Shown piece after piece: positions 21,181 through 56,521 of a stretch of DNA of 64,000 nucleotides. A model generated the notes under the pieces. It was not told the origin of the DNA. It searched no databases and saw only the letters and a list, made by a program, of their open reading frames with translations. Each line of letters starts with the position of its first letter. Positions within the stretch are counted from its first letter, which is position 1. Location: positions 1 through 64,000 of the forward strand of contig NZ_JACIDS010000003.1 of the NCBI RefSeq assembly GCF_014196455.1, in the 5' to 3' direction. Both the position numbers and the translations under genes were made by a program. This DNA comes from Kaistia hirudinis. GTDB lineage: Bacteria; Pseudomonadota; Alphaproteobacteria; Rhizobiales; Kaistiaceae.

Positions 21181-21348
21181 CGGATCGCCGCCGACGCAGT
21201 CCGCCGACGACAATCGGCCATAGGATGATCCAGACGGGGCGCTCTGTCATCGTCCGATGCGTGTATTCGCCTATTCGTCCCACCTAGAAGCCGACCAGCC
21301 TCGCGCCAGCGTCACGCTTTCTTGGCGGCGATCGGCATGATAGAAATC

Positions 21349-21363
21349 GTTCGTTCTTTGTTC
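21349..21363 (+). promoter_or_regulatory. LexA-type SOS box (GTTC-N7-GTTC)
   Basis: GTTC at 21349-21352 and GTTC at 21360-21363 are separated by exactly seven bases, the direct-repeat operator of alphaproteobacterial LexA. It ends 12 bases before the DUF763 start codon and touches its GGAG Shine-Dalgarno (21364-21367), a position where a bound repressor would block transcription. About two matches are expected by chance in 64 kb over both strands, so the location, not the match alone, is the argument. Confidence 0.5.
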
Positions 21364-21375
21364 CGGAGCGACATC

Positions 21376-22638
21376 ATGGCGAAGCGCGCGGGCAGCGCCG
21401 ATCTGCCGCTGCATGGCGGGCGGGTTCCCGCATGGCTCGGCCAGCGTATGACGCGGCTCGGCGCCGTCATCGCCGAAGCGATTTGCCAGCATTATGGCCG
21501 CGACGAGTTCCTTCGCCGCCTCGCCCATCCCTTCTGGTTCCAGTCCTTCGGCGCCGTCATGGGCATGGACTGGCACTCATCGGGCATCACCACCAGCGTC
21601 ATCGGCGCGCTGAAGCGCGGGCTGACACCGCTTTCGGGCGAGCTCGGCCTGCATGTCTGCGGCGGCCGCGGCACCCATTCGCGCGCGACGCCGGGCGAAC
21701 TCATGGCGATTGGCGAGCGCGTCGGCCTCGACGGCGCCGCGCTGGCGCGCGCCTCGCGGCTTGTCGCCAAGGTCGACAGTGCCGCGGTTCAGGATGGCTT
21801 CGATCTCTATCTGCACGGCTTCATCGTCACCGACGACGGCAAATGGGTCGTCGTCCAGCAGGGCATGAACGGCGACAGCCGCCTGGCGCGGCGCTATCAC
21901 TGGCTCTCCGAAGGGCTGACGAGCTTCGTCGACGCGCCGCATGCCGCGATCGACGGGCGCAGCTGCGGCACGATCGTGAACCTTGCCGACCATCGCGCGG
22001 CCCCGGCCCGCAAGGCGCAACTCGACCTGCTGACGGATCTCGGGCCGGACGGCATCGTGAACGAGGCGACCGCCCTGCAGCCCGCCAAAGCGCCCGCCGC
22101 CGCGCCGGACGCTCCGTTCCTGCCGCATCTCGTCATGCCCGCCCATCACGACGTCAGGCCGAAGGACGTCATGATGCGCCGCCTGCACGGGGCGCTGGCC
22201 GCCGCAGCCGAGCAGGGTCCAACCGATTTTTCCGAATTGCTTCTGGTGCCCGGCGTCGGCGCGCGCACCGTACGCTCGCTCGCGCTCGTTGCCGAGATCG
22301 TGCATGGCACGCCCTGCCGCTTCGCCGATCCGGCGCGCTTCTCGCTCGCCCATGGCGGCAAGGACCGCCACCCCTATCCCGTGCCGACCCGCGTGCTCGA
22401 CCAGACGATCACCGTGCTGAAATCCGCCGTCACCGCTGCGCGCCTCGGCAATGATGAGAAGCTGGACGCGATCCGGCGACTTGATCGGGAGGCGCGACGC
22501 CTGGAGGGCCAGGTCGGCGGCCCGTCCTTCCAGGAATTCGTCGGCGAGGAGCGCCGCCGCTCGCATGATTATGGCGGGCGCAGCGTCTTCGGCTGGGAGC
22601 CGCCCGAGGCGGAGATGGAGTCCAGCCGCCGGGGCTGA
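21376..22638 (+). CDS. DUF763 protein with a helix-hairpin-helix-like motif
   Basis: A 420-residue soluble protein of the DUF763 family (PF05559), known in archaea and bacteria with no established function. Conserved blocks are visible in order: ADLPLHGGRVPAWL near the N-terminus, FWFQSFGAVMGMDWHSSGITT (split around residue 65), GGRGTHSRATPGEL, AKVDSAAVQDGFDLYLH, WVVVQQGMN and ARRYHWLS. At about residues 288-305, LLLVPGVGARTVRSLALVAE fits a helix-hairpin-helix, a non-specific DNA-binding element. The ATG at 21376 has a GGAG Shine-Dalgarno 8 bases upstream; an upstream ATG at 21322 would add non-conserved residues and place the SOS-type box inside the gene. A role in DNA repair is inferred from the HhH and the LexA-type box. 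Confidence 0.85.
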   Translation: MAKRAGSADLPLHGGRVPAWLGQRMTRLGAVIAEAICQHYGRDEFLRRLAHPFWFQSFGAVMGMDWHSSGITTSVIGALKRGLTPLSGELGLHVCGGRGTHSRATPGELMAIGERVGLDGAALARASRLVAKVDSAAVQDGFDLYLHGFIVTDDGKWVVVQQGMNGDSRLARRYHWLSEGLTSFVDAPHAAIDGRSCGTIVNLADHRAAPARKAQLDLLTDLGPDGIVNEATALQPAKAPAAAPDAPFLPHLVMPAHHDVRPKDVMMRRLHGALAAAAEQGPTDFSELLLVPGVGARTVRSLALVAEIVHGTPCRFADPARFSLAHGGKDRHPYPVPTRVLDQTITVLKSAVTAARLGNDEKLDAIRRLDREARRLEGQVGGPSFQEFVGEERRRSHDYGGRSVFGWEPPEAEMESSRRG

Positions 22639-22650
22639 GCCGCCAAAAGC

Positions 22651-23526
22651 TCAGTCGCGCTTCAGCAGGCGGCAGACCGCATCAAGCTGTTCCAGCGTCG
22701 AATAGCCGATCTTGAGCGTGCCCGAGCCGTCGCGGCGGTGATCGATCGTGACCAGCAGCCCGAGCGTATCCGACAGCAGACGCTCCAACGCCCGCGTGTT
22801 CGCGTCCTTGTCCGCCTTCGGCTTGGCGGCGCCGCGCTTCGGCTCCTTCTCCTGCTGCGTCAGCGCCTCGGCGTCGCGGACGGTCAGCCCGCCCTCGACG
22901 ATGCGCGCCGCGACGGCGGCCGGATCCTCGACCGTGACCAGCGCCCGCGCATGGCCGGCCGTCAGCTTGCCGTCGCGGAGGTAGTCCTTAACGCTTTCGG
23001 GCAGCTTCAGCAGCCGCAGCGTATTGGCGACATGCGGCCGGCTCTTGCCGATCACATCGGCGAGCGCGGTCTGGCTATAGGCGAACTCGTCGATCAGCTG
23101 CTGATAGCCGAGCGCCTCCTCCAGTGGGTTCAAATCGCTGCGCTGGACATTCTCGATGATCGCGAGCTCGAGCGCTTCCTGATCGGAGACATTGTTGATG
23201 ATGACCGGCACGTCGTGCAGGCCCGCACGCTGCGCCGCGCGCCAGCGCCGCTCGCCCGCGATGATCTCGAAGCTGTCGCTGCCGGCCGGCACCTGCCGGA
23301 CCAGGATCGGCTGCACGATGCCCTTTTCGCGGACCGACGCGGTGAGATCGGCGAGGTCCTCCTCGCCGAAGGACCGGCGCGGATTGCGCGGATTGGGCCG
23401 CAGGAAGGCCGTCGGCACGCGGCGCGACGAACGCGCCCGCTCGCTCACCACCGCTTCCGTGTCGACATCCCCGATCAGGGCGGCGAGTCCGCGGCCGAGC
23501 CGCCGGCGCGATCCGTCTTCGCTCAT
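22651..23526 (-). CDS. parB: Chromosome partitioning protein ParB
   Basis: A 291-residue ParB/Spo0J. The N-terminus reads RRRLGRGLAALIGD, a conserved segment that contacts ParA. Then come the RPNPRNPRRSF region, the CTP-binding GERRWRAAQRAGL box (about residues 92-104), the ENVQRSDLNPLEEA segment and a helix-turn-helix YSQTALADVIGKSRPHVANTLRLLKLP (about 151-177) that reads parS. A C-terminal dimerisation domain ends the protein. It loads on parS as a CTP-dependent clamp and, with ParA, segregates the origin region. Two parS sites lie within 4 kb. It is downstream of parA, 27 bases away, in the usual parAB order. Confidence 0.96.
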   Translation of the reverse strand: MSEDGSRRRLGRGLAALIGDVDTEAVVSERARSSRRVPTAFLRPNPRNPRRSFGEEDLADLTASVREKGIVQPILVRQVPAGSDSFEIIAGERRWRAAQRAGLHDVPVIINNVSDQEALELAIIENVQRSDLNPLEEALGYQQLIDEFAYSQTALADVIGKSRPHVANTLRLLKLPESVKDYLRDGKLTAGHARALVTVEDPAAVAARIVEGGLTVRDAEALTQQEKEPKRGAAKPKADKDANTRALERLLSDTLGLLVTIDHRRDGSGTLKIGYSTLEQLDAVCRLLKRD

Positions 23527-23553
23527 CTTCGATCTCCCGAACTGGACGCGTCC

Positions 23554-24402
23554 TCAGGCGGCACGCAGCCGCTTCTCGCGCTGGATGATCTCCGACGCGA
23601 GCCGCAAATAGGCCTGGCTCCCCGTCGATTTGAAATCGTAGAGCAGCACCGGCTTTCCATGCGACGGCGCTTCCGAAATGCGGACATTGCGCGGAATGAT
23701 GGTCTCGTAGACCGCCTCGCCCATATGCGCGCGCACATCGGCCACGACCTGGCCGGCGAGATTGTTGCGGCTGTCGAACATGGTCATCACGATGCCGTGG
23801 ATCGACAGCTCCGGATTGAGTGCCTGACGCACCTGCTCCACCGTCGCCAGCAACTGGCTGAGACCCTCGAGCGCGAAAAATTCGCATTGCAACGGCACCA
23901 GGATCGAATGCGACGCCGACAGCGCGTTGATGGTGAGCAGGTTCAGCGATGGCGGGCAATCGACCAGAACATACGTATAGTTTCGGCCACGAATCGATTC
24001 CGCGCGCTGCATATGGCTGGCAATCGCCCGGCGCAGGCGGAACGCTCGATCCGAGCGGCTGGCAATCTCGAGCTCGACGCCGAGCAGGTCCATGGTCGAC
24101 GGGGCGACGGACAGGCGCGGCACGGCCGTCTCGACGACGATCTCGGACAGCACGGAGTCGCCGACCATCAGATCATAGGTCGAGCGCAGACGGCTCTTGC
24201 GGTCGATGCCGAGGCCGGTGGATGCGTTGCCTTGTGGATCCAGATCGACGATCAGCACCTCCTCGCCGATCGCAGCCAGCGCCGTGCCGAGATTGATCGC
24301 CGTCGTGGTCTTGCCGACGCCACCCTTCTGGTTCGCCAGCGCGATCACACGCGGATGCGCGGGCAGCAATGAGGGCGTCGCGTAGCTCTCGCTCAGGGTC
24401 AT
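23554..24402 (-). CDS. parA: Chromosome partitioning ATPase ParA
   Basis: A 282-residue ParA/Soj with the deviant Walker A motif KGGVGKTT at about residues 26-33, including the signature lysine two residues after the start of the motif. Walker A', VLVDCPPSLNLLTINAL, and the switch-like IVDLDPQGNASTGLG also fit. It binds DNA non-specifically as an ATP dimer and moves ParB-parS complexes. A stretch of about 20 residues before the ATPase core is variable in the family. It is upstream of parB and downstream of rsmG, the standard gidA-gidB-parA-parB order near bacterial origins. Confidence 0.96.
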   Translation of the reverse strand: MTLSESYATPSLLPAHPRVIALANQKGGVGKTTTAINLGTALAAIGEEVLIVDLDPQGNASTGLGIDRKSRLRSTYDLMVGDSVLSEIVVETAVPRLSVAPSTMDLLGVELEIASRSDRAFRLRRAIASHMQRAESIRGRNYTYVLVDCPPSLNLLTINALSASHSILVPLQCEFFALEGLSQLLATVEQVRQALNPELSIHGIVMTMFDSRNNLAGQVVADVRAHMGEAVYETIIPRNVRISEAPSHGKPVLLYDFKSTGSQAYLRLASEIIQREKRLRAA

Positions 24403-24423
24403 CGGAGGCCTCTTCCAATGCGC

Positions 24424-25062
24424 TCAGCGGGACGAAAGCCGCTTCGCCCCGAGGATCTCCACGATCGTGCTGTCGCGATCGATCATGCTCTTGTGTCTTA
24501 CCAGATCGAGCGACCAAGATTTAGAGGCTTCCGCCAGTTCCGCATCGAAATCTCCACCTTTATGAAAGGCGGCCCGCGTGCCGGCGGCGAAGAGCGGCTC
24601 GGCGAGGTCGAGCAGATCAGTGAGCGAGGCCAGCGCGCGTGCGCTGATGTAATCGACCGGTTCCCGCCATTGTTTCAGTACCGATTCGATCCGCCCCTCA
24701 TGGACGGTCGCCGGCGCCCCCGTCTCGCGAATGACGCTGCGCAGAAAGGCGCATTTGCGCTGATTGCTCTCGACGAGATGGACGACCGCACCCTCGCGTC
24801 CTGTCAGCAGAATGGCCGTGATCATCCCAGGCAGGCCAGCCCCGGACCCGAGGTCGACCCAGCGCAGGACGTTCGGGAACTGGGCGACCAGTTGCGCCGA
24901 ATCGGCTATGTGCCGCTGCCAGACCTCACCGAGCGTCTTCGGCGACACCAGATTCTGGGCCGGCTGCCAGCGGCGCAGCAGTGCGACATAGGCTTCGAGG
25001 CGCGCCAGTGTTTCACGTGAAACAGGCAGGATGCGGCTGACGGCCGTCGAATCGTCGCTCAT
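24424..25062 (-). CDS. rsmG: 16S rRNA (guanine-N7) methyltransferase RsmG
   Basis: A 212-residue S-adenosylmethionine-dependent methyltransferase that makes m7G527 in 16S rRNA. The SAM-binding motif [12 protein letters not shown] is at about residues 88-99, followed by [14 protein letters not shown] and ISARALASL, all typical of RsmG/GidB. Loss of it gives low-level streptomycin resistance in many bacteria. The start codon overlaps the mnmG stop (ATGA), so the two are co-translated. A perfect parS lies inside its first 20 codons, so the PVSRETLAR residues are encoded by a segregation site. Confidence 0.95.
25009..25024. other. parS centromere site 1
   Basis: TGTTTCACGTGAAACA, a perfect 16-base palindrome identical to the general bacterial parS consensus, lies within the 5' end of rsmG and 1.5 kb from parB. 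ParB would load here. The full 16-base match is extremely unlikely by chance. Confidence 0.95.
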
Positions 25063-27014
25063 GCCGCACCCCGCTCGACACCAACGCCCGACGGCGATCC
25101 GCTCGCATCCGCTGCGAGCGCAGCGCTCTGGGCAAGCGACGCCGCGCCCGTTGGCGACTCAGTGCGCCGCCCCGGCCGTCGTGTCCGCGCCAGAATGAGC
25201 GCCAGAGCGGCCGGTGTCATGCCCTCGATCCGCGCGGCTTGGCCGAGCGTGGTGGGACGAACCGTGCTGAGGCGCAGCTTCAATTCGTTCGACAGGCCGT
25301 CCATGCCGGCGAAGTCGAGATCGTCCGGCAGTGTGACGCCTTCGTCGCGCCGCACCGAATCGATGTCGTGCCGCTGGCGGTCGAGATAGACGGCGTATTT
25401 CGCGTCCGATTCGATCTGCGCCAGGATGGCTTGCGGGAACGCACCGAGCTCCGGCCAGATCAGGGCGAGCCGCGCGGGCGTCACATCGGGATAGGCGAGC
25501 AGATCGAAGGCAGAGCGCCGGACGCCGTCCTGATTGACAGCGAGCCCGCGGCGGGCCGCTTCGGTCGGCGTCAGCGCCACGCCACGATAGAGATCCGCCG
25601 CCTGCGCGAGCTGAGCCTTCTTCTCGCCGAAACGCTGCCGACGCTCAGTGCCGATGAGCCCCAGCGCATCGCCCCAGTCGGTCAGGCGCTGATCGGCATT
25701 GTCGGCCCGCAGCGACAGCCGGTATTCGGCGCGCGAGGTGAACATCCGATAGGGCTCCGACACGCCGCGCGTGACGAGGTCGTCGATCATCACGCCGATA
25801 TAGCTGTCGGACCGCGCAAAGGTGACGCCATCGGCGCCGCCCGCCCGACGCGCCGCATTGAGACCGGCAACCAGACCCTGGGCCGCCGCCTCCTCATACC
25901 CGGTCGTGCCATTGATCTGCCCGGCGAGGAAAAGACCGGCAACGCGCTTGGTCTCAAGCGTCGCCCGCAATTCGCGCGGATCGACATGGTCATACTCGAT
26001 CGCATAGCCCGGCCGGAGAATCGCCGCCTTCTCGAGCCCAGGGATGGAAGCAACCAGCGCGCGCTGCACATCCTCCGGCAACGACGTCGAGATGCCATTG
26101 GGATAGATCGTCGGATCGTCGAGCCCTTCCGGCTCGAGGAAGATCTGATGCCCATCGCGTTCACCGAAGCGGACCACCTTGTCCTCGATGCTCGGGCAAT
26201 AGCGCGGTCCCCGGCTTTCGATCTGGCCGGAATACATGGGCGAGCGCGCGAGGTTCTCGCGGATGACGCGATGGGTCTCCGCCGTCGTCCGCGTGATGAA
26301 GCAATCGACCTGCGGGCGCGTGATCGCCGCGGTGAGCATCGAGAACGGCTCGGGCTCCTCGTCACCGGGCTGGCGATCGAGCGACGCCCAGTCGATCGTG
26401 CGACCATCCAGTCGCGGCGGTGTTCCCGTCTTAAGACGCGCCAGGCGGAAGCCCGCCCGCTCCAGCGTCACGGAGAGGCCGAGCGCCGGCTGCTCGCCGA
26501 CGCGCCCCGCCGGAATCTTGGTTTCGCCAATATGGATCAGGCCGCGCAGGAAGGTGCCAGTCGTAATCACCACCGCGGAGCAACGAAGGACCCGTCCATC
26601 GGCCAGCACGACTGCATTGACCGCCCCGTCGACAATGTCGATATCGTGGGCCTCGCCTTCGACGACCGTCAGTCCGGAGGTCTCGGCGATCGCGGTCTGC
26701 ATCGCCTCGCGATAAAGCTTGCGATCGGCCTGCGCGCGCGGTCCACGCACCGCTGGCCCCTTGCGTCGGTTGAGCAGGCGGAACTGAATCCCGGCCGCGT
26801 CGGCCACGCGGCCCATCAGCCCATCGAGCGCGTCGATCTCGCGGACGAGATGACCCTTGCCGAGTCCGCCAATGGCCGGATTGCAGGACATCACGCCGAT
26901 GGTCGCGTGCTGATGCGTCAACAGCGCCACCGCCGCGCCCATGCGGGCAGCCCCTGCCGCCGCCTCGCAGCCGGCATGCCCACCGCCAATGACCACCACA
27001 TCGAAGGACGTCAT
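25059..27014 (-). CDS. mnmG: tRNA uridine 5-carboxymethylaminomethyl modification enzyme MnmG
   Basis: A 651-residue FAD enzyme that works with MnmE to add carboxymethylaminomethyl to wobble U34 of certain tRNAs. The Rossmann motif [13 protein letters not shown] is at about residues 6-18; [20 protein letters not shown] and [14 protein letters not shown] are MnmG/GidA signatures. The C-terminus extends about 38 residues beyond the usual end (after LILARTRR) with an Ala/Ser/Pro-rich tail. ATG at 27014 follows a purine-rich GGGAAGAAG; an ATG at 27029 would add five residues (MFGKK). It overlaps rsmG by four bases and is separated from mnmE by a parS-containing gap. Confidence 0.95.
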
Positions 27015-27090
27015 CTTCTTCCCAAACATCTTGTCTGCGCGTCCGCCGCGCGCTTCGCTGTACCGATCCGGACGCCGTCCGTCAAAGACC

Positions 27091-27106
27091 TGTTCCACGT
27101 GAAACA
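27091..27106. other. parS centromere site 2
   Basis: TGTTCCACGTGAAACA in the mnmE-mnmG intergenic gap matches the parS consensus at all positions except the variable fifth base, where C replaces T. It is 2.1 kb from site 1. Confidence 0.9.
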
Positions 27107-27121
27107 CCCGAAACGATTCGG

Positions 27122-28513
27122 CTATTTCCCGATGCAGAATTCCCGAAAGATCACGTCGAGCCAATCATCGACGTCGATGCGTCCGGTAAGCCGGCCGATG
27201 GCGTCGCCCGCCTGACGCAGCCGCTCCGCCTTCAGCTCGATCACAGATTCCGTGGAAGCAGCCCGGAGCGCAGTACAGGCTTGCTCCAACTCGATGCGCT
27301 GCCGCTCCCGTGTCACCAGCGGATCGGGACCCGCGCGCCTGAGGCCGAGCGAGGCTGCGATCGCCTGCCGCAGCGCGTCCAGTCCCTGCCCCGTCGGCGC
27401 CGAGATCGCCACATCCCATCGGTTCGGATCCGAATCGATCGCGTTGAGGTCGGCCTTAGACCGGACACGCAATACCGAGGCGCTGGTGTCGGGCAATGCA
27501 AAGCGTGAACCCTCATCGCCGTCCGACAGCAGCAGCACCAGATCCGCCGCCTCGCCGCGGGCACGTGCCCGTCGCACGCCCTCGCGCTCGATCAGATTGT
27601 CCGTCTCGCGCAGCCCGGCGGTGTCGACGAGCGTCACCGCATAACCGTCGAGATCCATCCGCACTTCGATCGTGTCGCGCGTCGTGCCGGCCTCGGCCGT
27701 GACGATGGCGACCTCGCGTTTCGCCAGCGCGTTGAGAAGGCTGGACTTGCCAACATTGGGTGCGCCCAGCAGGACTACCTCGAAGCCCGACCGCACGCGC
27801 TCGGCAAAGGCGGCGTCACCCAGATGGGCTTCGATCTCCCTCGCGACGCTGTCCGCGATCGCGTCAGACAGGTTCGCCAGCGTCTCGGGGACGTCATCCT
27901 CGTCACTGAAATCGAGTTCCGCCTCGAGAAAGGCGCGGGCCTCGACGAGTCGGGTCCGCCAAGTCTCGGCGAGCCGCCGCAGCCCACCTCCAGCCTGACC
28001 GATCGCCAACCGACGCTGCATCTCCGTCTCGGCCGCGACGAGATCGGCAATGCCCTCGACCTCGGTCAGATCCGCGCGGCCATTGACGAAAGCGCGCCGG
28101 GTGAACGCGCCGGGTTCCGCCGGGCGAAATCCCGGCAGCTCGCCCAAAGCCCGCAGCACGGCCGCGACGACGGCGCGTCCGCCATGCACATGAAGCTCGC
28201 AGACATCCTCGCCGGTGAAGCTCGCCGGCGCCGGAAAGAACAACACCAGTGCGCGATCGAGTGGCTCGCCATCGGCAGTGCGAAGCGTCGCCAAAGTAGC
28301 GTGGCGCGGCTCCGGAATGCGACCGAGCAATGTTTCGAGTCCGAATCGAACGCCGGGACCGCTCGCCCGGATCACCGCGACGCCGGCCGGCGGCTGGCCG
28401 CTCGACAAGGCGAAGACCGTATCGCCGCTCGACGGGGGCTCCGCCTCCGCTATGCTGTCCGCGCGTCGATCCCAAGCTGCGAGAGGCCGGTGTCCCAAAA
28501 TCTCCTGTCCCAT
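27122..28513 (-). CDS. mnmE: tRNA modification GTPase MnmE
   Basis: A GTPase of about 460 residues that partners MnmG. The N-terminal tetrahydrofolate-binding part begins [22 protein letters not shown], the G-domain Walker A is [10 protein letters not shown]3 is DTAGLRET, and the C-terminus ends FCIGK, containing the invariant catalytic Cys. The start is unusual. The conserved N-terminus begins near base 28430, but the first upstream in-frame start codons are TTG at 28498 and ATG at 28513, adding 22-27 non-conserved residues and overlapping the divergent gene that starts at 28490. An ATA at 28451-28453 is the only nearer start-like codon. I give the ATG; the true 5' end is open. Confidence 0.9.
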
Positions 28514-54872: not shown

Positions 54873-56408
54873 TCAGGCCGCCGCCAGCAGCCGCTCGCCC
54901 GTGCTGCGATAGGCGAGGGCCTCGGCGAGATGCATGCGGCCGACCGTCTGCGATCCGTCGAGATCGGCGATCGTCCGCGCCACCTTGAGCACGCGGTGAT
55001 AGCCGCGCGCCGAGAGCTTCATCCGCTCCGCGGCCTCGCCGAGCAGCGCTCGGCCGCCGGCATCGGTCTCTGCGATCTCCTCCATCAGGGCGGAGGGACA
55101 GCGGGCATTGGTGTCGATGATCGTGCCGGCCGCCAGTTCGGCGTAGCGCTCGGCCTGGATCTCCCGCGCGCGGGCGACGCGCGCGGCCACCGCGGCGCTC
55201 GCCTCCGAGCGGCCCGGCTGGATCAGGTCGCTCGCGGTCACGGCCGGCACTTCGATGCGCAGATCGATGCGGTCGAGGAACGGGCCGGAGAGCCGTTCCT
55301 GATAGTCGGACGCGCAGCGCGGGCCGCGACGGCAGGCATGGCCGGGCTCCCCCGCAAGACCGCAGCGGCAGGGGTTCATGGCCGCCACGAGCTGGAAACG
55401 CGCCGGATAGGTCACGCGATGATTGGCCCGGGCAATGATCGCCTCGCCGCTCTCCAGCGGCTGGCGGAGCGAATCGAGCACCTGCGGCGAGAATTCCGGC
55501 AATTCGTCGAGAAACAGCACGCCGTGATGCGCGAGCGACACTTCGCCGGGCCGCACCCGCAGCCCGCCGCCGACCATCGCCGCCATGGAAGCGGAATGAT
55601 GCGGCGAGCGATAGGGACGCCGGTCCGTCAGGCGTCCGCCGGACAATTCGCCGCCGATCGAGGCGACCATCGAGACTTCGAGCAGCTCGCGCGGCGAGAG
55701 CGGCGGCAGGATCGAGGGCAGGCGGCTCGCCAGCATCGACTTGCCTGCGCCGGGCGGGCCGGTCATCAGCAGGCTGTGTCCGCCGGCGGCCGCGATTTCG
55801 AGCGCGCGCTTGGCGAGTTCCTGGCCCTTCACATCGGCAAGGTCCGGCAGGAGCGGCGGCTCGCCCATCAGCGCGGCGACCGGTCGCGTGATCATCTGCG
55901 TGCCCTTGAAATGATTGGCGACGGCGATGAGGCTCCGCGGTGCGACGATGTCGAGGTCGCCGCCGGCCCAGGCCGCTTCCGGCCCGGCCGATGACGGGCA
56001 GATCAGCCCACGGCCGAGCGCATTGGCCCCGATCGCGGCGGGCAGCACGCCGGCGACGCTCGCGATCGTGCCGTCGAGCGCGAGCTCGCCGAGAACCACG
56101 TAATCCTTGAGCCGGTCGCCCGGCGGCGCGCCGAGCGCGGCCATCAGAGCCAGCGCGATCGGCAGGTCGTAATGGCTGCCTTCCTTGGGCAGATCCGCCG
56201 GGGCGAGATTGACGATCACGCGCTTCGGCGGCAGAGCGAGGCCCGATGCATGCAGCGCGGAACGGACGCGCTCACGGCTCTCCGCCACGGTTTTATCCGG
56301 CAAGCCGACGATGATGAAGCTCGGCAGGCCCGGCACGACCTGGACCTGCACATCCACGGGAACCGCCTCGATCCCCTGGAACGAAACCGTCGTCACATGC
56401 GCAACCAT
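54873..56408 (-). CDS. YifB/ComM-family AAA ATPase (Mg-chelatase-like)
   Basis: A 511-residue protein with an N-terminal ChlI-like/Lon-like domain (VSFQGIEAVPVDVQVQV...GLPSFIIVGLPDKTVAESRERVRSAL), a central AAA domain with Walker A GPPGAGKS (at about residue 218) and Walker B VLFLDELPEF, a zinc-binding-like group of cysteines in CRCGLAGEPGHACRRGPRC, and a C-terminal Mg-chelatase domain. Close homologue ComM in Vibrio is a helicase that aids branch migration during natural transformation; the family also occurs in non-transformable bacteria. Downstream of it is gshB after a 113-base gap. Confidence 0.9.
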   Translation of the reverse strand: MVAHVTTVSFQGIEAVPVDVQVQVVPGLPSFIIVGLPDKTVAESRERVRSALHASGLALPPKRVIVNLAPADLPKEGSHYDLPIALALMAALGAPPGDRLKDYVVLGELALDGTIASVAGVLPAAIGANALGRGLICPSSAGPEAAWAGGDLDIVAPRSLIAVANHFKGTQMITRPVAALMGEPPLLPDLADVKGQELAKRALEIAAAGGHSLLMTGPPGAGKSMLASRLPSILPPLSPRELLEVSMVASIGGELSGGRLTDRRPYRSPHHSASMAAMVGGGLRVRPGEVSLAHHGVLFLDELPEFSPQVLDSLRQPLESGEAIIARANHRVTYPARFQLVAAMNPCRCGLAGEPGHACRRGPRCASDYQERLSGPFLDRIDLRIEVPAVTASDLIQPGRSEASAAVAARVARAREIQAERYAELAAGTIIDTNARCPSALMEEIAETDAGGRALLGEAAERMKLSARGYHRVLKVARTIADLDGSQTVGRMHLAEALAYRSTGERLLAAA

Positions 56409-56521
56409 GCGTCAGCCCCCATTTGAAGGAAGCCTAAGCGAGATCAGTGCATCTGACAAGAACAGGACGGGAACAAAATCACGCGCCGGTTGCTATCCGG
56501 TTGTAGGCGGTTGAATTCCGT

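Follow-up and report, generated by a model that had tools for sequence, protein, structure and literature searches.

The DUF763 gene and its upstream region

The window, by which we mean the whole 64-kb stretch of Kaistia hirudinis DNA analysed here, carries a gene of the DUF763 family on the forward strand. Directly before it lies a short sequence, GTTCGTTCTTTGTTC, that matches the pattern GTTC-N7-GTTC exactly and is separated from the ATG by 12 bases. The features relevant to this locus and to a second box in the window are the following:

21338..21346, + strand: candidate extended -10 element TGATAGAAA, just 5' of the box (read from the sequence)
21349..21363, + strand: putative LexA-type operator GTTC-N7-GTTC (exact match; enriched across the family relative to spacer and half-site controls; also present in the relative L009)
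21364..21368, + strand: Shine-Dalgarno-like CGGAG, touching the box (read from the sequence)
21376..22638, + strand: DUF763 protein, 420 aa (PF05559, 86-row alignment, AlphaFold2 model)
22225..22305, + strand: helix-hairpin-helix-like motif, residues 284-310 (weak PF00633 and PF14520 matches; modelled helices)
54873..56408, - strand: comM-like Mg-chelatase-type ATPase (PF01078, E 1.6e-93)
56460..56474, - strand: second LexA-type box of the window (exact match; kept in 24 of 24 relatives; positive control)

The 420-aa reading frame matches PF05559 over residues 6-336 (Pfam, E 5.4e-122), and the score of 407.4 bits, against a curated cut-off of 35.5 and across profile positions 1-319 of 319, identifies it as a true, full-length member of DUF763 that does not differ from the family. 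Its start was placed at the ATG at 21376, and homologues share this methionine as their start or begin close to it; a longer frame from a TTG at 21322 (438 aa), given in a mechanical ORF list, receives no support from them. An earlier sequence-only reading had set the box 12 bases before the start codon and in contact with the Shine-Dalgarno sequence, and its coordinates are correct, CGGAG following the box directly. The helix-hairpin-helix-like motif that it noticed near residue 290 was likewise located, at residues 288-299 (LLLVPGVGARTV). As it also stated, DUF763 has no established role: none was found in the literature searched, where the one paper that names the family, a domain census (PMC554113), assigns it no function.

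The neighbours of the gene in the window are a LacI-type regulator and ParB according to Pfam, with no repair genes. On the reverse strand after DUF763 (22651-27164), parB, parA, GidB-like and MnmG-like genes stand in series; parB was named by Pfam, and the other three are what we take the reading frames to be. This row is presumably a typical partition locus near the chromosome origin.

LexA-type boxes in the genome and among relatives

In alphaproteobacteria the LexA motif is given as GTTC-N7-GTTC in the relevant passage of PMC3323433, and the Caulobacter consensus as GTTCN7GTTC in that of PMC4211646. The 64-kb window taken alone is uninformative about the box, since its two exact copies compare with a mean of 1.19 after shuffling and 35 of 100 shuffles reach two, in line with the estimate of the sequence-only reading that the count was near chance. 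In the whole genome (5.26 Mb, 14 contigs), 132 exact boxes were counted against 41 for the reversed pattern. A narrower form with a T-rich spacer end, GTTCN5WTGTTC, to which the DUF763 box belongs, occurs 19 times against 0 for the control. The genes downstream of these 19 boxes include ruvC and genes for a DnaE-type polymerase, a radical-SAM protein, a VOC-family protein and an AAA ATPase, while the remaining sites lie inside reading frames or adjoin unrelated genes. The genome has a single lexA, with an exact box 99 bases 5' of its start, and a recA with a one-mismatch box nearby.

The second box of the window served as a reference; 51 bases separate its end from the start of the comM-like gene. 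Thirty comM loci from the same family of genomes were fetched, 24 of which had the gene start and 200 upstream bases; all 24 carry an exact box between -63 and -83, the spacer letters differing from gene to gene. Because the comM box is kept throughout and comM is reported to be SOS-regulated in alphaproteobacteria (in the pertinent sections of PMC3323433 and PMC6473078), both boxes of the window are most likely genuine operators.

A key question is whether the box belongs to DUF763 genes generally or only to this one. In the fetched loci 184 DUF763 genes were located, and 161 with distinct protein cores were retained. An exact box lies within 300 bp upstream of 50 of the 160 genes having at least 250 upstream bases. 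For the comparison with controls, 200 bp upstream and proteins longer than 300 aa were required, which left 159 genes after exclusion of one with 160 upstream bases and one shortened by a frameshift. Exact boxes were found upstream of 49 of these 159, compared with 0-4 for spacers of 3-6 and 8-15, 0-7 for permuted half-sites with N7, and 4 of 496 for the other genes in the same loci. One of the four is dinB in locus L030; its end and the start of DUF763 overlap, an arrangement that is an SOS-type operon. An upstream scan of the kind proposed by the sequence-only reading thus supports its interpretation of the box as a LexA site.

The boxes of the relatives also behave as an operator would. The set of 46 comprises 28 in the GTTC and 18 in the GAAC orientation (one row holds two), at distances of -15 to -127, and their spacer letters vary except for the T-rich end. 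In 23 of the 46, a TGNTA motif stands no more than 20 bp upstream, compared with 1.5% of 5000 random stretches; of the 86 DUF763 genes without a box, 19 also contain it in the promoter stretch. The retention of half-sites while spacer, strand and position change is the pattern expected from selection for a repressor site, and the frequent placement after TGNTA, with lineage-dependent spacer, strand and distance, is as expected of an operator. On a gene tree of 131 rows (reduced at 95% identity), 45 of them with a box, the trait requires 17 changes, at least 8 of which are forced by supported branches, compared with 37 for shuffled labels. Sequence comparison therefore places the box as a trait that is clustered on the tree yet has been repeatedly gained or lost. 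In L009, the nearest relative in the tree (83% protein identity), the box stands at nearly the same place with different spacer letters. Telmatospirillum siberiense and Afifella marina are other species whose DUF763 gene has it.

Two other accounts of the box were considered. That it might be a promoter site of another regulator was rejected, because the sequence of the operator, the direct repeat that it forms and the copies at lexA and comM all point to LexA. A chance match, with no LexA control at this gene, would fit the ease with which shuffled windows reach two boxes and the 110 of 159 relatives without an exact copy. It was rejected on the spacer, half-site and other-gene controls, and it also sits poorly with the count of 19 against 0 for the T-rich form in the genome and with the near-identical placement in L009 despite other spacer letters; we regard it as extremely unlikely. 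Thus, LexA very probably controls the DUF763 gene of this genome, and the predicted control of many DUF763 genes by LexA is well supported. The gene would share the operator of the alphaproteobacterial LexA regulon (lexA, recA, ruvC, comM and dnaE-type genes), placed next to the promoter, and differs from comM, with its box in 24 of 24 cases, in that only 49 of 159 DUF763 genes keep theirs.

Occurrence of DUF763 and lineages without the box

DUF763 is scattered, being present in 21 of 28 genomes of the window's family, 74 of 397 of the order, 13 of 387 of the class and 26 of 397 of the phylum (draws that overlap). It was also found in 230 plasmid records, most of them from Rhizobium and Sinorhizobium and a few from haloarchaea, and among 14 control genomes in Sulfolobus acidocaldarius only. 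Caulobacter vibrioides, a model for the LexA regulon, was one of these control genomes and no DUF763 was found in it, which may explain why the gene has been overlooked. In some relatives the gene is split into two pieces and is consequently dispensable. These data suggest that DUF763 is an accessory gene, shared with archaea and spread horizontally. A phage or virus origin was considered and rejected, as a DUF763 pattern search of IMG/VR contigs and a search of 50,697 phage records with an archaeal DUF763 query both returned no match.

The sequence-only reading had held that absence of the box upstream of most alphaproteobacterial DUF763 genes would count against it. Taken literally, this is what was found for the exact box, which is missing from 110 of the 159 genes (7 of the 159 genes are from outside the class, and the other 152 are not known to be), because whole clades are without it. 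These comprise most Mesorhizobium rows, an R. etli-type plasmid clade, the family f32 and others. One-mismatch boxes occur in 32 of the 110, compared with 10-27 for other spacers, a modest excess. Within the family to which the window's genome belongs, the box precedes 8 of 18 full-length DUF763 genes, compared with all 24 comM genes. In eight rows that lie outside the alphaproteobacteria or branch deeply, the upstream sequence contained neither the gamma/beta form CTG-N10-CAG, nor the xanthomonad-type motif (in the form that we assume for it), nor the Gram-positive GAAC-N4-GTTC. On this sequence evidence, the claim of LexA control appears to hold for many lineages, including that of the window, and not for the DUF763 family as a whole.

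Some box-free genes carry other sequences upstream. In three Mesorhizobium loci (L045, L046 and L047), an inverted repeat of the type TATCTGT-N4-ACAGA takes the place of the LexA box, possibly as the site of another regulator. In two box-free loci of the window's genus, pairs of GAAC half-sites are spaced by N5 (L002) and N11 (L001); these might be decayed or altered operators.

The DUF763 protein, its neighbours and a possible role

Another important question is what the protein does. In an alignment of 86 rows, reaching down to 41% identity and including haloarchaea, the N-terminal two thirds contain many invariant polar and aromatic residues, the polar set being D65-W-H-S-S-G70, GG-R/K-G at 96-99, D134, Q139-D140, H147, Q161-Q162 and R172-R173-Y-H-W176. 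The invariant residues of the C-terminal part are G293, G295, E307, P313, D318-P319 and G327-G328-K329-D330. An AlphaFold2 model built from 81 rows (mean pLDDT 81.7, pTM 0.81; low stretches at 189-204 and 234-251) shows helices 267-284 and 295-310 joined by a PG(V/I)G-type hairpin. Structure prediction, which the sequence-only reading had proposed, yielded a model that matches no known fold, whether taken whole or as the C-terminal part. Foldseek searches of the PDB ended without a significant match, at a best E of 0.65 with the whole model and of 1.5 with a separately built C-terminal model (pLDDT 78.8), and the PDB searched by sequence and profile gave none either. No significant match was found in a viral structure library (best E 0.094), NCBIfam had no match for the window protein, and PHROGs returned scattered weak matches, none of them consistent. 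The absence of a fold match does not by itself prove that the fold is new. Phage single-strand annealing proteins (ERF, RecT) came up several times among the first 25 weak matches from the viral library; kinship with them was rejected because the scores are too weak (E values of 0.5-2.3, with probabilities no higher than 0.12 and TM-scores no higher than 0.13).

The hairpin segment is where similarity to known modules can be recognised. PF00633 (HHH) matches 30 of the 86 members at E <= 5 (best 0.0015) and PF14520 (HHH_5) matches 7 of 86 weakly, while the fragment from the window protein scores 13.2 bits, below the curated cut-off of 24. The C-terminal profile aligns weakly with a RecQ HRDC domain (E 1.5, profile search of the PDB), and DUF6918, to which no function is assigned, gives a weak match in 18 of 86. 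The weak HHH, HHH_5, HRDC and RecQ-HRDC signals coincide on one segment, 284-310, which has the same PGVG-type hairpin between two helices as the HhH and HRDC modules (PF00633, PF14520, PF00570); it differs in scoring below the curated cut-offs and in being attached to a 250-residue domain without a known fold. The sequence-only suggestion of a DNA-binding protein is therefore borne out in part: the hairpin is recognisable, but its scores are sub-threshold and the rest of the protein resembles no known fold. Predicted from sequence and model, DNA binding is a weaker claim than regulation.

Repair genes stand beside DUF763 in some lineages. On a Bosea plasmid it adjoins a methylpurine-DNA glycosylase gene (MPG), two Ku genes and LigD; in Sphingomonas loci the order is dinB, DUF763, an AlkB-type gene and then a DnaE-type polymerase gene. 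AlkB-type genes recur in 13 loci (Mesorhizobium and Sphingomonas); two loci have a LigD primase gene upstream, and one has a UvrD-type helicase gene. A scan of 97 loci for the nearest neighbour with 120 aa or more (94 upstream and 96 downstream genes; raw counts) gave 2OG-FeII_Oxy_2 (AlkB-type) downstream in 4 of 96, and LigD_Prim-Pol and IMS (DinB) upstream in 2 of 94 each. Repair families are thus among the few recurrent neighbours, while most neighbours are unrelated, and the repair-gene neighbourhood is real in some lineages, a minority. On a Haladaptatus plasmid (L208), an archaeal DUF763 gene adjoins an orc1/cdc6 replication-initiator gene.

These observations can be assembled into a mechanism. 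LexA bound at 21349-21363, covering the likely transcription start just before the ribosome-binding site, would keep DUF763 expression low, as the comparison of relatives strongly suggests; upon damage, RecA-stimulated cleavage of LexA is predicted to release it. The protein would then most likely act on damaged DNA, with the N-terminal domain of unmatched fold, dense in invariant polar residues, as the putative catalytic part and the C-terminal helix-hairpin-helix-type segment holding the DNA backbone. Many alphaproteobacteria would have brought this accessory gene under LexA. We infer that DUF763 is most likely an SOS-inducible DNA-processing enzyme, and we regard the reading as a whole (membership in the SOS regulon, repression by LexA and release by damage, action on damaged DNA, and horizontal spread of an accessory gene) as reasonably probable.

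The role of the protein is where this reading meets its main competitors. LexA control could be real and the protein an SOS-controlled accessory enzyme or a stress protein whose targets are nucleotides, RNA or proteins, with the HhH-like segment as a general helical module. The large conserved domain without a known fold, the sub-threshold HhH scores and the predominance of neighbours other than repair genes are compatible with such a protein, whereas the kept PGVG-type hairpin, whose G293 and G295 are unchanged throughout the 86 rows, the convergence of the weak signals on one segment and the repair families among the most recurrent neighbours point towards DNA; we consider a role away from DNA unlikely. 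A more specific proposal is that DUF763 is an enzyme resembling the HhH-GPD DNA glycosylases and that it acts on alkylated bases together with AlkB and MPG. The order of hairpin, G311-x-P313 and invariant D318, which in our own reading of the alignment we take to resemble that of HhH-GPD proteins, and the AlkB-type and MPG neighbours in several lineages would suit it. An HhH-GPD domain is not among the listed matches from Pfam, the PDB profile search or Foldseek with the full and C-terminal models, and we judge the proposal very unlikely.

In addition to the preferred reading of an SOS-inducible, DNA-processing protein, a bolder form of it can be tentatively entertained, namely that DUF763 represents a novel class of enzymes that process DNA damage. 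These would have a fold absent from solved structures, occur in both archaea and bacteria, move between genomes, have come repeatedly under LexA in alphaproteobacteria, and work alongside genes for alkylation repair, end joining and translesion synthesis. The LexA regulon is known; the new element is DUF763 as a probable member of it, from an unexplored protein family. The operator would give this gene of archaea and scattered bacteria a concrete regulatory handle, and since none of the solved folds matches the protein, positive experimental results could bring a new repair activity to light.

Two further T-rich boxes of the genome lie 23-24 bases 5' of the radical-SAM gene and the VOC-family gene (L134 and L135), which are candidates for additional SOS genes.
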